From Flavobacteriales bacterium (GTDB lineage Bacteria; Bacteroidota; Bacteroidia; CAIKAF01): a stretch of 64,000 bases of DNA. The first letter of the stretch is position 1. Each line of letters opens with the position of its first letter. The notes below the pieces were generated by a model. It did no database searches. It was not told the DNA's origin and saw nothing but the letters and a program-made list of their open reading frames with translations. Both the position numbers and the translations under genes were made by a program. The stretch is from positions 1 through 64,000 of the forward strand of contig JAOABX010000008.1 of NCBI GenBank assembly GCA_026418175.1. The letters are read 5' to 3'. This document shows, in pieces, positions 36,974-64,000 of the stretch.

Positions 36974-39379
36974 ATGAATAAACTTTACAAAATATTTCTA
37001 TATGCAGGTATTTTTTTGCAGAGTAACTTGTTTGCTCAGTATGCTATTACTGGCAAAGTAACCACATGGGATGGAGCTGTTGCAGAATTTGCCAATGTGT
37101 TAGTAGTAAATATTGCTGATACATCACAGTTTGTAGGAACAGTTGCTGATATCAATGGAAAATTCGAATTTTCTGGTATTCGGTTTCAGCAGGTATATAT
37201 CAAAGCATCCCTAATAGGGTATGCTTCTGCACGTAGTGAGGCTATTTTATTACCTCACCATGAATTTGTTAACTTGATATTGATACCAGTAGCTACTGAT
37301 ATTGAAGAAATCAGCATTGTAGCATTTAAACCCAAAATAGAAATTGAGGCTGGTAAAACAACACTTAATGTAGATAATTCAACCATCAGTACCGGACTGA
37401 ATGCAATGGAACTGATTCGAAGAATACCTGGTGTTTTTGTGGATAATGATGGTAATATTTCTATCAAAGGAAAAAGCGGTGTGAATATTTACATTGATGA
37501 TAAACCTACCTATATGAGTGGTAGAGAATTAAAAAATCTACTCAACAGTTTACAGGCATCCAATATTGAAAAAATAGAAGTGATGAATCAGCCGGGTGCA
37601 GCCTATGACGCGCAGGGGAATGCAGGAATTTTAAACATTAAACTGAAAAAGAAAATGAACTTAGGGTTTAATGGTACCCTGGATGCATTTTATGGCCAAG
37701 GCATTTATCCAAAAGCAGGAGGCTCATTTACATTTAATTATGGTAAGGGCAAATGGAACTTTAATGGTTCTTATGCCTATAATTACAGGAAGGGGTTAAT
37801 GGAAACCAGTATGGAACGTGCCATAGGCAATGCCTCGTATGCAAGAAGATACACTGGCGTATCACAGGATCATTCACACATGGCAAAATTGGGATTTGAT
37901 TACGATATCAACAAAAAACGGAGTATAGGCTCATATGGAAATTTTACCGGAACACATAACGATTGGAAGGGAGGGGGTAGGGCCATTTTTTCAGATGCGT
38001 TGAATACTGTAGTTGATTCAGTAAATATTACGGAGGACTATACGCCCTGGTCATCTTACAATATTCAGTTAAATATAAATAGTCAGTGGAAGATAGATAC
38101 CAATGGACAAAAATTAATGTTGAATGTGGATGGAGGAACATTTCGGGAAAATACACGAGGCGATTACCGTTTTTTTTACTTGTTAGGCAACGGCGATACA
38201 GCGCGAACAGTTCCAAATGTATGGTACACCCAAACACCTCAACTATATCTTGTTTCTGGTAAGCTGGATTATATTCATCCTAATTTGCTAGGATTTCAGG
38301 TTGAAGCAGGGTTAAAAAGCAGTTACGTAAGCAACGATGGACCTGTGGAATTCAAAACACGCGATTCATTGAATAATGAAGTGGTTATCACTAATCAAAC
38401 CAATCATTTTTTGTATTTGGAAAACATCAATGCCATCTATATTTCCATAAAACGAAATTTTAAAAAGTGGAATTTTCATGCTGGTCTGCGTGGTGAGCAT
38501 AGCAACATTACTGGCAAGCAAATCATTACTTCTCAGTTAAACAAACAACAATACTTCAGTTTATTTCCTACAGCCGGCATATCATATATACCCAATGAAA
38601 ATCATAACTTATCGTTATTATATTCCCGTCGAATAGACCGTCCATCTTATGGAGAATTGAATCCGTTTGTATATGTTTTGGATAATTTTAGCAGCTACCA
38701 AGGTAATCCCAACTTAAAGCCTGAATTTTCTGAAAATTTTGAATTAAATTATACATTATTTCAAGCATTATCATTCAACACAACCTATAGTTTAATTACG
38801 GATGCATCCAGCGAAATATTTTTTGTGGATTCCCTCAACCCGGAACGATTGATATTTTCATCAGGAAACATTGGAAGGGTACATAATTTTTCTTCAGGTG
38901 TAACACTTTCAATGTCTGTTGGAAATTGGTTGTTTATGATGGTAAGTGGCAATGCAATATACAATAACTTTAAAGATACATTATTAAACATTGCTAATGA
39001 AGGATGGTATGGGATGTTCAGCGGATATATTGAATTTTATCTTCCGATGAAATTTACTATGGAATTAAATGGTTATGTTATGACATCCATGCCTGATGGG
39101 CAGCAATTATCTAAACCAATGGGTGAAGTTAGTGCCGGAATCTCTAAATCATTACTTAAAGATCAGATGAAAATAAAATTCAATGTGAGTGATATTTTTC
39201 GGACCACACAATGGCGGGCATTTGGGATATCACCAAGTGGAGAAAGTTTTTATAGTACATACTGGTGGGATAGTCGGGTATTTACTTTTTCTATAAGCTA
39301 TAAACTGGGTGCCGGCAATCGCGAATTTACCACTAAAAAAGATAGTTTATTTGACCGCGTAGGAGGAGGAAGAAACTAA
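36974..39379 (+). CDS. TonB-plug outer membrane beta-barrel protein
   Basis: Outer membrane protein of 801 residues: signal peptide (MNKLYKIFLYAGIFLQSNLFAQ), carboxypeptidase-regulatory-like domain (about 25-105, ITGKVTTWDGAV), a plug-like domain (about 120-220, ELIRRIPGVFVDNDGNISIKG) and a long barrel of the OMP_b-brl_3 type (about 230-790). It lacks the long C-terminal signature of classical SusC proteins, and no SusD partner is near. The substrate is unknown; siderophore, metal or peptide uptake are possible. ATG 36974 is preferred over 36923. The 3' end is two bases from the convergent XRE gene. Confidence 0.85.
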   Translation: MNKLYKIFLYAGIFLQSNLFAQYAITGKVTTWDGAVAEFANVLVVNIADTSQFVGTVADINGKFEFSGIRFQQVYIKASLIGYASARSEAILLPHHEFVNLILIPVATDIEEISIVAFKPKIEIEAGKTTLNVDNSTISTGLNAMELIRRIPGVFVDNDGNISIKGKSGVNIYIDDKPTYMSGRELKNLLNSLQASNIEKIEVMNQPGAAYDAQGNAGILNIKLKKKMNLGFNGTLDAFYGQGIYPKAGGSFTFNYGKGKWNFNGSYAYNYRKGLMETSMERAIGNASYARRYTGVSQDHSHMAKLGFDYDINKKRSIGSYGNFTGTHNDWKGGGRAIFSDALNTVVDSVNITEDYTPWSSYNIQLNINSQWKIDTNGQKLMLNVDGGTFRENTRGDYRFFYLLGNGDTARTVPNVWYTQTPQLYLVSGKLDYIHPNLLGFQVEAGLKSSYVSNDGPVEFKTRDSLNNEVVITNQTNHFLYLENINAIYISIKRNFKKWNFHAGLRGEHSNITGKQIITSQLNKQQYFSLFPTAGISYIPNENHNLSLLYSRRIDRPSYGELNPFVYVLDNFSSYQGNPNLKPEFSENFELNYTLFQALSFNTTYSLITDASSEIFFVDSLNPERLIFSSGNIGRVHNFSSGVTLSMSVGNWLFMMVSGNAIYNNFKDTLLNIANEGWYGMFSGYIEFYLPMKFTMELNGYVMTSMPDGQQLSKPMGEVSAGISKSLLKDQMKIKFNVSDIFRTTQWRAFGISPSGESFYSTYWWDSRVFTFSISYKLGAGNREFTTKKDSLFDRVGGGRN

Positions 39380-39381
39380 AA

Positions 39382-39789
39382 TTATTCTAACAATTCAAAA
39401 TCATCAAAGGATTCTGCTTCCGAAGATTTATTCTCTGATTTAGGCTTTCTTCGCTCCACTTTTACTTCAGTTTTAAATAATGGCTCCGGTTTAAACTTTA
39501 GCAATTCGGTAAGGTCTGTACGCAATGCATGGGCAATTTCCATCAACGTATCAATAGTAAAATTATGTTTCCCGCTCAACCATTTACTAATCTCTGATGG
39601 CGATTTTCCCATCAGGGCTGCAAATTCTGATTTGCTGATTCCTTTATTTTTTAGCAGAGCTTCAATATTGTTAGCCAGGTTGAATTTGGTTTCTACCCTG
39701 ATCTTTTCTATTTCCTGCATCTCTTGTAAAAGGTTTTTCAACAGATTACCTTTAAAGAGATTTTTACCAGATTTATTATTCTTAATCAT
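39382..39789 (-). CDS. XRE family helix-turn-helix regulator
   Basis: 135 residues with a Cro/CI-type helix-turn-helix in the middle (about 38-95: LANNIEALLKNKGISKSEFA, MGKSPSEISKWLSGKHNF, MEIAHALRTDLTEL). A basic N-terminal arm precedes it and a charged, Glu-rich tail (about 105-135, SEAESFDDFELLE) follows. It resembles HigA-type antitoxin domains, but no toxin gene is adjacent. The start lies 27 bases from a TACCTTTG promoter element, and the shared region with the divergent phasin-like gene holds three palindromes. Regulation of itself and of that gene is a good inference. Confidence 0.85.
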   Translation of the reverse strand: MIKNNKSGKNLFKGNLLKNLLQEMQEIEKIRVETKFNLANNIEALLKNKGISKSEFAALMGKSPSEISKWLSGKHNFTIDTLMEIAHALRTDLTELLKFKPEPLFKTEVKVERRKPKSENKSSEAESFDDFELLE

Positions 39790-39815
39790 ACACGTTTATA
39801 AACCTAAATCTTTGC

Positions 39816-39823
39816 CAAAGGTA
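39816..39823 (-). promoter_or_regulatory. -7 promoter element for the XRE regulator
   Basis: CAAAGGTA on the plus strand, that is TACCTTTG read toward the regulator gene, 27 bases before its ATG. A TGTCA motif (39840-39844) and the first ACTT-NN-AAGT palindrome (39854) lie upstream of it. Confidence 0.6.
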
Positions 39824-39853
39824 TAAAATCAGTCATCCATGTCAGTTTATTTT

Positions 39854-39987
39854 ACTTAAAAGTTAAAAAACATGACAAGTTTCTGACAAAAAGTCAAGAA
39901 TGTCAGTTGTTTGGCAGTATTGTCATAATAGTATTTAACTTATAAGTAAAATTTATTATTGATTATCAATTATTTAAACTTAAAAGT
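39854..39987. promoter_or_regulatory. three ACTT-NN-AAGT palindromes, probable operators
   Basis: ACTTAAAAGT at 39854-39863, ACTTATAAGT at 39938-39947 and ACTTAAAAGT at 39978-39987. Each has inverted ACTT/AAGT half-sites with a two-base AT centre. Between and beside them lie TGACA or TGTCA pentamers (39840, 39873, 39884, 39901, 39921) in both orientations. All are in the 292-base gap between the XRE regulator and the phasin-like gene. The last palindrome lies just upstream of TTTG (39992) and TATTTTTTG (40011-40019), a near-consensus promoter toward the phasin-like gene. Confidence 0.6.
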
Positions 39988-40081
39988 GAAATTTGGCACA
40001 GGTGTTTTTTTATTTTTTGCATGGCTTTTGAAAGTGTCATGCCAGCAAACATTTATTATTAACCAAATAAAAAAAACAATT

Positions 40082-40411
40082 ATGGAACAATCATTGAAAA
40101 ATTTCCTGTATGCCGGTGTTGAATTAGCCGCTGCTATGTCTGAAAAGTTTGAAGCCAGTGTGAATGAACTGGTAAAAAAAGGTAAAATCTCTGCTGAAGA
40201 AGGAAAGAAAATGGTAGATGAGTTTTTGAGCAAAAGCGAATCCAAAGCAGCTGATTTTGAATCGAAAGTAAAAGAATTTACAAGCAAATTCAAGAAGAAA
40301 ACTGAGGAAGAGCAATTGGAAGAATTAAAAAAACAGGTAGCAGAATTAGAAGCTAAATTGGGTAAAAACAAACCAGCTCCAAAAGCAACAACTGCTGCTT
40401 CAAGTAAGTAA
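40082..40411 (+). CDS. Phasin-family-like coiled-coil protein
   Basis: 109 residues, very rich in Lys, Glu and Ala. A short amphipathic start (MEQSLKNFLYAGVELAAAMS) is followed by a helical, coiled-coil-forming body with SVNELVKKGKISAEEGKKM, typical of phasin/PhaI-like proteins, and an Ala/Pro/Thr tail (KPAPKATTAASSK). Phasins coat polyhydroxyalkanoate granules, but no PHA synthase is in the window, so the name shows fold and not role. The ATG at 40082 is preferred over the longer frame that opens at 39959 inside the operator region. A strong terminator follows. Confidence 0.75.
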   Translation: MEQSLKNFLYAGVELAAAMSEKFEASVNELVKKGKISAEEGKKMVDEFLSKSESKAADFESKVKEFTSKFKKKTEEEQLEELKKQVAELEAKLGKNKPAPKATTAASSK

Positions 40412-40449
40412 TTTGAGCAAGCATAGTTTAGATTTAGATTAGATTAGAA

Positions 40450-40482
40450 GAACGGGTTCCATCAAAAGGAGCCCGTTTTGTT
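40450..40482 (+). terminator. intrinsic terminator after the phasin-like gene
   Basis: AACGGGTTCC (40451-40460) pairs with GGAGCCCGTT (from 40468, one G-U pair), loop ATCAAAA, then TTTG. It ends the one-gene transcript. Confidence 0.8.
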
Positions 40483-40552
40483 TATTATAAATATTTTAGA
40501 AAAAAGTTCCATTTTTATTTTCGATAACTATTTAAGCACACCCTATTTTTGA

Positions 40553-40560
40553 TACTTTTG
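40553..40560 (+). promoter_or_regulatory. -7 promoter element for ubiB
   Basis: TACTTTTG, a TAnnTTTG match 31 bases before the ubiB ATG. A second match, TATTTTTG at 40544-40551, overlaps it by one turn. Which one is used cannot be told. Confidence 0.5.
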
Positions 40561-40591
40561 CACGGCTAGCCATCAAACAGGCTTCCAACCC

Positions 40592-42280
40592 ATGATTTTT
40601 AAGCAAACATTTCGAAATATCCGGCGTATCCGGGAAATTATTGCCATACTGATAAAGTATGGGTTTGAAGACATTGTAACCAATTCAACCCTTCGAACAT
40701 TTGTTACTGAAAAGCGACGCCTCACCTGGATGCGGTATGAAAAGCCGGTATTTGAATATACCCGTTGGGAACGCATTCGCATGGTAGTAGAAGAATTAGG
40801 TCCCACGTTTATAAAATTAGCACAAGTGCTTAGCAACAGGCCGGATATGTTGCCGGAGCCTTTAATAGAAGAATTTGAAAAATTACAAGACAGGGTACCA
40901 CCATTTGCGTATGAAGAAGTTCGTCGTATTATACGTAAAGAGATGGGATGTGAAATTGAAGATATTTTTGATGAGTTTGTCGAAACACCCATCGCATCCG
41001 CTTCTATTGGACAAGTGCATAAAGCCCGGTTAAAAACTGGTGAATTGGTAGTAGTTAAAGTACAACGTCCGGAAGTACAGGAAGTAATTGAACGTGATTT
41101 GGCCATTGTGCATGAAGTGGTACGTCGAACTGATCGATATTTAAGAAAACAGGGAATTTTAAATGCTTCGGATATTGTCAAGGTATATGAAAAAACCATG
41201 CAGCGGGAACTTGACTACCGAAACGAAGCCCGAAACATTAATAAATTTCGAAAACTTTACGGCAAAAACAGCAATTTATATATCCCCAAAGCCTATAAAG
41301 AATATACCACACAACGCATGATGGTGTTGGAGTATGCCGATGGATGCAAAATTACTAATGTAGACCAGTTGCGTGAATGGGGATTAAACCCTCATCGTAT
41401 CGTAGAAAATGGAATGAGCATATACCTGGAAATGATTTTTGAAAAAGGGGTGTTTCATGCTGATCCACATCCAGGAAATGTGCTGGTGCGACGAGATGGG
41501 GTGATACTACTTCTTGACTTTGGCATGACCGGGCATTTGATGAAAAAAGATAAATATGCATTTGCCAACGTTTTTATTTCAATAGCAAAAGGTGATGCAC
41601 GCCAAGCTGCCGAATACATGCGTAAACTTGCCATTGAAGACCAAGTAGAAGACTTTCGATCGTTGGAATATGACATGCATGAGTTAATTGAAGACTTTAG
41701 TAATTTGGATGTGAGTGAAGGAAGCATTGCAGATATTACCCAGCGGTTGCAAAAGATTATGTTGAATTATCAAATGCAGGTGCCGGGTGATATATTTATG
41801 ATTTTCCGAGCTTTGGCCATTTTGGAAGGCATTGGTAAAATTATGCACCCCAACTTTAAAACCTTTGAATTTATTAAGCCTTGGGGAGCCAAAGTTGTAG
41901 CAGATCAATTACGACCGGATAATATTCTTAGCGAATTAGAAAACCGGTATTTTAACCTTACCGCTTTTCTTACCACACTACCCATTGAAATTAAAGCCAT
42001 TTTACAGGCAACCCGTAAAGGCAAATTGCATTTTGAAGTGGAATTGCAAGGGTATGGTTACCTTCTGAAAAAAATGGATCAAGTAACCAACCGAATTTCT
42101 ATAACATTTATAGTTGTAGCTTTGGTGATTGGTTCTTCCATAATGGCTACAGTGCCATTTCCGCAGGAGATGGTTACACCCTACGGTTTAAATTATTTTT
42201 CGTTAGCCGGCTTCCTCATTGCCGGAGGCCTTTTTCTTATCTTGATTTATCTTATTATACGGGTTAGAAAGTATAAGTAA
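40592..42280 (+). CDS. ubiB: UbiB/AarF/ABC1 family atypical kinase
   Basis: Atypical protein-kinase-like ATPase of the ABC1/ADCK/UbiB family, 562 residues. Family motifs are the N-terminal VVEELGPTFIKLAQVLSNRPDMLP, the Ala-rich nucleotide loop SASIGQVHKARL, HADPHPGNV and the DFG-like LLLDFGMTG. Two membrane segments form the C-terminus (about 500-560). In Proteobacteria UbiB is needed for ubiquinone; Bacteroidota make menaquinone, so the role is probably in lipid or quinone handling generally. Its own promoter and the terminator before it make it a separate unit from the phasin-like gene. Confidence 0.88.
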   Translation: MIFKQTFRNIRRIREIIAILIKYGFEDIVTNSTLRTFVTEKRRLTWMRYEKPVFEYTRWERIRMVVEELGPTFIKLAQVLSNRPDMLPEPLIEEFEKLQDRVPPFAYEEVRRIIRKEMGCEIEDIFDEFVETPIASASIGQVHKARLKTGELVVVKVQRPEVQEVIERDLAIVHEVVRRTDRYLRKQGILNASDIVKVYEKTMQRELDYRNEARNINKFRKLYGKNSNLYIPKAYKEYTTQRMMVLEYADGCKITNVDQLREWGLNPHRIVENGMSIYLEMIFEKGVFHADPHPGNVLVRRDGVILLLDFGMTGHLMKKDKYAFANVFISIAKGDARQAAEYMRKLAIEDQVEDFRSLEYDMHELIEDFSNLDVSEGSIADITQRLQKIMLNYQMQVPGDIFMIFRALAILEGIGKIMHPNFKTFEFIKPWGAKVVADQLRPDNILSELENRYFNLTAFLTTLPIEIKAILQATRKGKLHFEVELQGYGYLLKKMDQVTNRISITFIVVALVIGSSIMATVPFPQEMVTPYGLNYFSLAGFLIAGGLFLILIYLIIRVRKYK

Positions 42281-63781: not shown

Positions 63782-64000
63782 TACAATATCTTTTCACAAA
63801 ATAGTGAATAAAGTAATATATTAAAAGTGCTTGTTCTATAAGAGGAAGAAAAACACATTCAACTACCAGTTTATTGGGAAATATTTTTTTGTATTTGTTT
63901 TGTTATACTAATTGCGTTACATCATAGACTTTGTACTTAAAAGTAGCGAACTATCACCATAACTAAGAAATCTGTAATTGTTTTGCAGGGCTTCATGGTA
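63782..64000. other. AT-rich end region with regulatory-looking motifs
   Basis: No coding sequence is supported in the last 219 bases. They contain the inverted repeat TTCAC/GTGAA (63793-63808) upstream of the minus-strand gene and a fourth copy of ACTTAAAAGT (63935-63944), close to TAGACTTTG (63925-63933), a possible promoter pointing out of the window to the right. Confidence 0.45.

Follow-up and report, generated by a model that had tools for sequence, protein, structure and literature searches.

Three conserved palindromes between divergent XRE regulator and phasin-like genes of a Flavobacteriales bacterium are probable operator sites of a local switch

The region between an XRE-family regulator gene and a divergent phasin-like gene in a Flavobacteriales bacterium (GCA_026418175.1, contig JAOABX010000008.1) carries three short palindromes of the form ACTT-NN-AAGT, which raises the question of what binds them and which of the two genes they serve. 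A preliminary description of the 64,000-nucleotide stretch analysed here (the window) had proposed that they form an operator set through which the XRE protein controls both itself and the phasin-like gene. The features of the locus are collected in Table 1.

Table 1. Features of the XRE/phasin-like locus, in window positions
Feature	Position	Strand	Basis or remark
XRE-family (HTH_3) regulator, 135 aa	39382..39789	-	Pfam HTH_3 PF01381 and ORF
TACCTTTG, -7 box (TAnnTTTG type) of XRE promoter	39816..39823 (39823-39816)	-	sequence
Five-pentamer TGACA/TGTCA cluster	39840..39925	.	sixth pentamer at 40035
Operator site 1 (predicted), TTTACTTAAAAGTTAA	39851-39866	.	core ACTTAAAAGT 39854-39863
Operator site 2 (predicted), TTAACTTATAAGTAAA	39935-39950	.	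core ACTTATAAGT 39938-39947
TTGATTATCAATTATTTA containing TATCAATTATTTA, matching IHF/HU-type consensus WATCAANNNNTTR	39959..39976	+	between sites 2 and 3
Operator site 3 (predicted), TAAACTTAAAAGTGAA	39975-39990	.	core ACTTAAAAGT 39978-39987; 1 mismatch to the 16-mer
Conserved promoter-like element of phasin-like gene, TGCATGGCTTTTGA	40018..40031	+	six-genome alignment
Phasin-like coiled-coil protein, 109 aa	40082..40411	+	NCBIfam phasin-related domain, below cut-off
Intrinsic terminator-like hairpin 3′ of phasin-like gene	40449..40479	+	sequence
UbiB/ABC1 atypical kinase	40592..42280	+	Pfam ABC1 2.7e-84

A sequence search recovered ACTTWWAAGT at 39854, 39938 and 39978, as originally placed, and revealed that the core extends to a 16-bp palindrome, TTNACTTNNAAGTNAA. 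Such a 10-mer had been stated to be expected well under once per window; the calculated expectation is 0.55. The window holds a fourth copy at 63935. Among 2000 dinucleotide shuffles of 39790-40081, 1983 contained no ACTTWWAAGT, 17 contained one and none contained more, which agrees with the earlier contention that three copies in 134 bases are not due to chance. Furthermore, with arms of any sequence allowed, no other part of the 64 kb has three copies of a single 4-N2-4 palindrome inside 150 bp. The region is, however, AT-rich (only 25% GC) and approximately 5% of its shuffles contain at least three copies of some 4-N2-4 palindrome, so that the number of copies is by itself no more than suggestive; the strong support comes from conservation and the 16-bp extension. 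Genome-wide, ACTTWWAAGT is not over-represented, being found in 20 places versus 91 for a reversed-string control.

Four genomes, two from one genus (G000 and G001) and two from a second genus of the same family (G006 and G010), have the XRE and phasin-like genes side by side in divergent orientation. All three palindromes are present in each of the four, and alignment of the divergent region bears out their conservation: the arms are invariant in 24/24 columns, versus 93/244 columns outside the sites (Fisher 5e-10, a value in which independence is overstated as the genomes are related). With genomes this few and this closely related, the conservation statistics are descriptive. The site spacings of 84/40, 84/42, 83/43 and 83/43 bp amount to approximately eight helical turns for the first interval and four for the second. 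Between the two genera site 1 differs in its center (ACTTAAAAGT versus ACTTTTAAGT), the arms being constant. The linked XRE genes accordingly possess a palindromic sequence in their own promoter region, conserved where the two genes are adjacent.

Perfect 16-mers in G000, G006 and G010 all lie in this single intergenic region, G001 has one extra within an open frame, and none is found in four genomes of the family without the XRE gene. A whole-genome regulon was considered and rejected, the other one-mismatch sites in G000 and G001 lying mostly in open frames. The sole near-match shared by orthologous places of these two genomes (L113 on contig C24 and L122 on C68, respectively) falls in coding sequence. 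Apparently the XRE protein would have no further target in the genome.

The XRE protein matches PF01381 with 52 bits (cut-off 23; 7e-14), which places it in the HTH_3 family. All six XRE proteins share an identical recognition helix, GKSPSEISKW, and a wider search of the family and order revealed no further close copies among 16 genomes. In the predicted structure the HTH core is confident (blocks with pLDDT 78-89), the tails are not, and the Foldseek neighbors of the model are HTH_3 regulators, including the controller proteins C.BclI and C.AhdI. Because the end of the gene abuts a convergent TonB-type receptor gene, the regulator is monocistronic and solitary. No toxin-like ORF adjoins it in either the linked or the unlinked arrangement, as would be found with a type II antitoxin of the HigA kind, nor are there restriction-modification genes beside it, the neighbors being the TonB-type receptor, the phasin-like gene and ubiB. 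The TAnnTTTG sequence of its promoter (-12 to -5) corresponds to the sigmaA -7 consensus of F. psychrophilum (PMC9723704). Site 1 does lie upstream of this box, as first described; the core ends 30, 30, 31 and 19 bp from it in G000, G001, G006 and G010, respectively, from which the core in G000 is placed at about -52 to -43.

Whether the other gene encodes a phasin is doubtful. Its product fell below every curated cut-off consulted (NF047773 phasin-related, 27.7 bits versus 35, 1.7e-06; Pfam Phasin, E 0.38; TIGR01837), and PHA synthase (PF07167) was absent from 15/15 genomes, the source and 14 relatives, while a Caulobacter control gave a match. The protein is predicted to be helical, the fold having low confidence (pLDDT 62) and no usable PDB match. 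Downstream, the order phasin-like gene then ubiB/ABC1 (40082-42280) is kept in many Bacteroidota genomes. This frequent neighbor may point to a lipid or quinone setting for the phasin-like protein; a literature search on phasin and ubiB yielded nothing useful.

Upstream of the gene, GCA..G..TTTG within TGCATGGCTTTTGA is invariant in the six-genome alignment, and the same element, with the consensus TGCAYRG-N2-TTTGM, recurs in three further loci (L014-L016). It may be read as an element of sigma54-like spacing or else as a -7 box that is degenerate. A sigma54-dependent promoter would carry GG at -24 followed, ten bases on, by GC at -12; TGCATGGCTTTTGA has the right spacing but departs from that promoter type in having a single G in place of the GG and in reading TTGA. 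Sigma54 is encoded in the genome, where the canonical pattern TGGCAYR-N4-TTGC occurs in four places. Of six genomes, three match the full IHF/HU-type consensus in the interval that separates site 2 from site 3. A search of Rfam gave no match across 39300-40700.

The distribution of the regulator provides a further line of evidence. In two other members of the genus of G000 and G001 (G002 and G003) the XRE gene lies elsewhere, beside an ORF that we read as recX-like. Upstream of the phasin-like gene of these genomes sites 1 and 2 are kept, 82 bp apart and with at most one mismatch each, and site 3 is lost; the site arms are conserved in 14/16 columns versus 56/139 for the surroundings (p 3e-4, independence again being overstated as the genomes are related). 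The region upstream of their XRE gene contains no site, even allowing three mismatches, so autoregulation would not be universal. All six genomes with a close XRE gene therefore have palindromes, four of them three exact sites and the other two a pair of sites, neither with more than one mismatch; among class members that lack a close XRE gene, 0/24 phasin loci have the motif. Since the palindromes track the XRE gene and persist before the unlinked phasin-like gene, XRE is the candidate binder and the phasin-like gene a probable true target; the simplest reading would tie autoregulation to the linked arrangement. The latter is probably the older, being found in both genera, and the slight decay of the phasin-side sites in G002 and G003 possibly reflects slow loss after unlinking. 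The XRE locus is also borne by JACSSC010000026.1 (L080), titled Candidatus Competibacteraceae; as the locus is that of Bacteroidota, the title is probably a mislabel.

The pentamers behave differently. Five TGACA/TGTCA pentamers had been counted in the divergent region; 39790-40081 contains six (39840, 39873, 39884, 39901, 39921 and 40035), a number never reached in shuffles. Four or five of them at once are also found upstream of phasin-like genes in several families without XRE (L011-L016, L030), and because they are conserved where the regulator is absent they are unlikely to be its half-sites, contrary to their inclusion in its system. In several of those loci the pentamers are followed by TTTGGCAY and a GCAYRG-N3-TTG element. 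TGTCA-N4-TGTCA is found nowhere else in the genome. The cluster probably serves another, uncharacterized regulator, and the pentamers look like sites of an older one acting on the phasin-like gene.

The preliminary description knew of no such pairing of regulator and target, yet there is a precedent: in the passages of PMC11332829 concerned, Ralstonia eutropha H16_B1672, also of the XRE family, binds PphaP1 with a KD of about 175 nM and acts there as a repressor in reporter assays. The pairing is thus not new. As proposed here, an XRE-family protein sits at a phasin promoter; homology between the two regulators is established no further than the HTH family, R. eutropha is a true PHA producer, and those same passages mention neither a palindrome nor a divergent gene pair. 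PhaR is likewise described, for example in passages of PMC3570403, as repressing a phasin gene and itself, the arrangement suggested for XRE. PhaR binds PHB, whereas here no PHA synthase was found. We take it to belong to a different protein family.

Controller (C) proteins of restriction-modification systems are similar in being small, HTH_3-type and autoregulated, in using short AT-centered palindromes and in their near fold, and their consensus GACTTATAGTC (PMC4321490) strikingly resembles the site 2 core ACTTATAAGT. C sites are, however, typically about 4 bp apart, while here the centers are 40-84 bp apart; with no restriction-modification genes present, this is a resemblance rather than membership. 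In Bacteroidales, XRE proteins encoded in toxin-antitoxin-like operons of three genes (L084-L092, L094-L096) share approximately 41-49% identity over the matched HTH part and have a similar recognition helix, but the protein described here is solitary, has a different acidic tail and a recognition helix that starts differently. In these operons a toxin-like gene comes first, the XRE gene second and a conserved gene (~145 aa) third, and no ACTT palindrome is found. The first and third genes gave no match in Pfam; the third is, to our eye, reminiscent of SecB-like chaperones.

Three readings compete with operators through which XRE represses both genes. That the palindromes are functionless products of AT-rich DNA has the low GC content and the any-arm shuffle triples in its favor, but arms invariant across two genera, conserved spacing and a 16-bp extension limited to the locus disfavor it so strongly that we regard it as very improbable. 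The palindromes might instead belong to another regulator of the phasin-like gene, with XRE a bystander, which would suit their persistence before that gene in G002 and G003 although XRE lies elsewhere; this is unlikely, as both genomes do encode XRE with an identical recognition helix and the motif never accompanies the phasin-like genes of XRE-less genomes.

A less remote alternative is that XRE binds the sites and activates the phasin-like gene, or both activates and represses in the manner of C proteins, the sites being upstream activating elements. In three of four genomes the cores precede the -33 region, at about -52 to -43 relative to the XRE start, and an operator just upstream of -33 would equally suit an activator; moreover, the structurally similar C proteins both activate and repress, according to passages of PMC3115060. 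In G010, by comparison, the core is 11 bp closer and overlaps the -33 region, a better fit to repression, and the regulator of the sole XRE-phasin precedent found is a repressor in the passages cited above. Activation is thus possible, though the weaker candidate; the favored mechanism is that XRE dimers, bound to sites in helical phase, repress both genes.

The original proposal of an operator set consequently holds for the palindromes, which follow the XRE gene, and not for the pentamers, which lie outside the system. From sites that are conserved, co-occur with the XRE gene and are confined to this locus, we infer binding by the adjacent XRE protein, cooperativity, repression in preference to activation, and a signal. 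That protein likely uses the three palindromes as its operators, a local and probably cooperative set for both genes, most likely repressing. One XRE dimer would probably occupy each 16-bp palindrome, site 1 lying just upstream of XRE's own promoter and sites 2 and 3 upstream of that of the phasin-like gene; the eight- and four-turn spacings would put the dimers on the same face of the helix and so allow cooperation. In effect the regulator would likely limit itself and keep the phasin-like gene down as well. A more elaborate scheme, which we consider a long shot, has a solitary, possibly antitoxin-derived XRE clamping the DNA that separates a sigma54-like promoter from an upstream cluster of TGTCA enhancers, with sites 2 and 3 flanking the IHF/HU-like site, and so gating a phasin-like protein that has a lipid or quinone role alongside UbiB in cells devoid of PHA synthase.

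The favored repressor reading describes an ordinary local switch, in which the palindromes are very probably the regulator's own sites; operator and locus are new as far as the searches show. For an uncharacterized XRE family of uncultivated, Flavobacteriales-type bacteria it yields a testable operator sequence and a target; the genomes in which XRE is linked, unlinked or absent constitute a natural experiment tying the regulator to the phasin-like gene beside ubiB.
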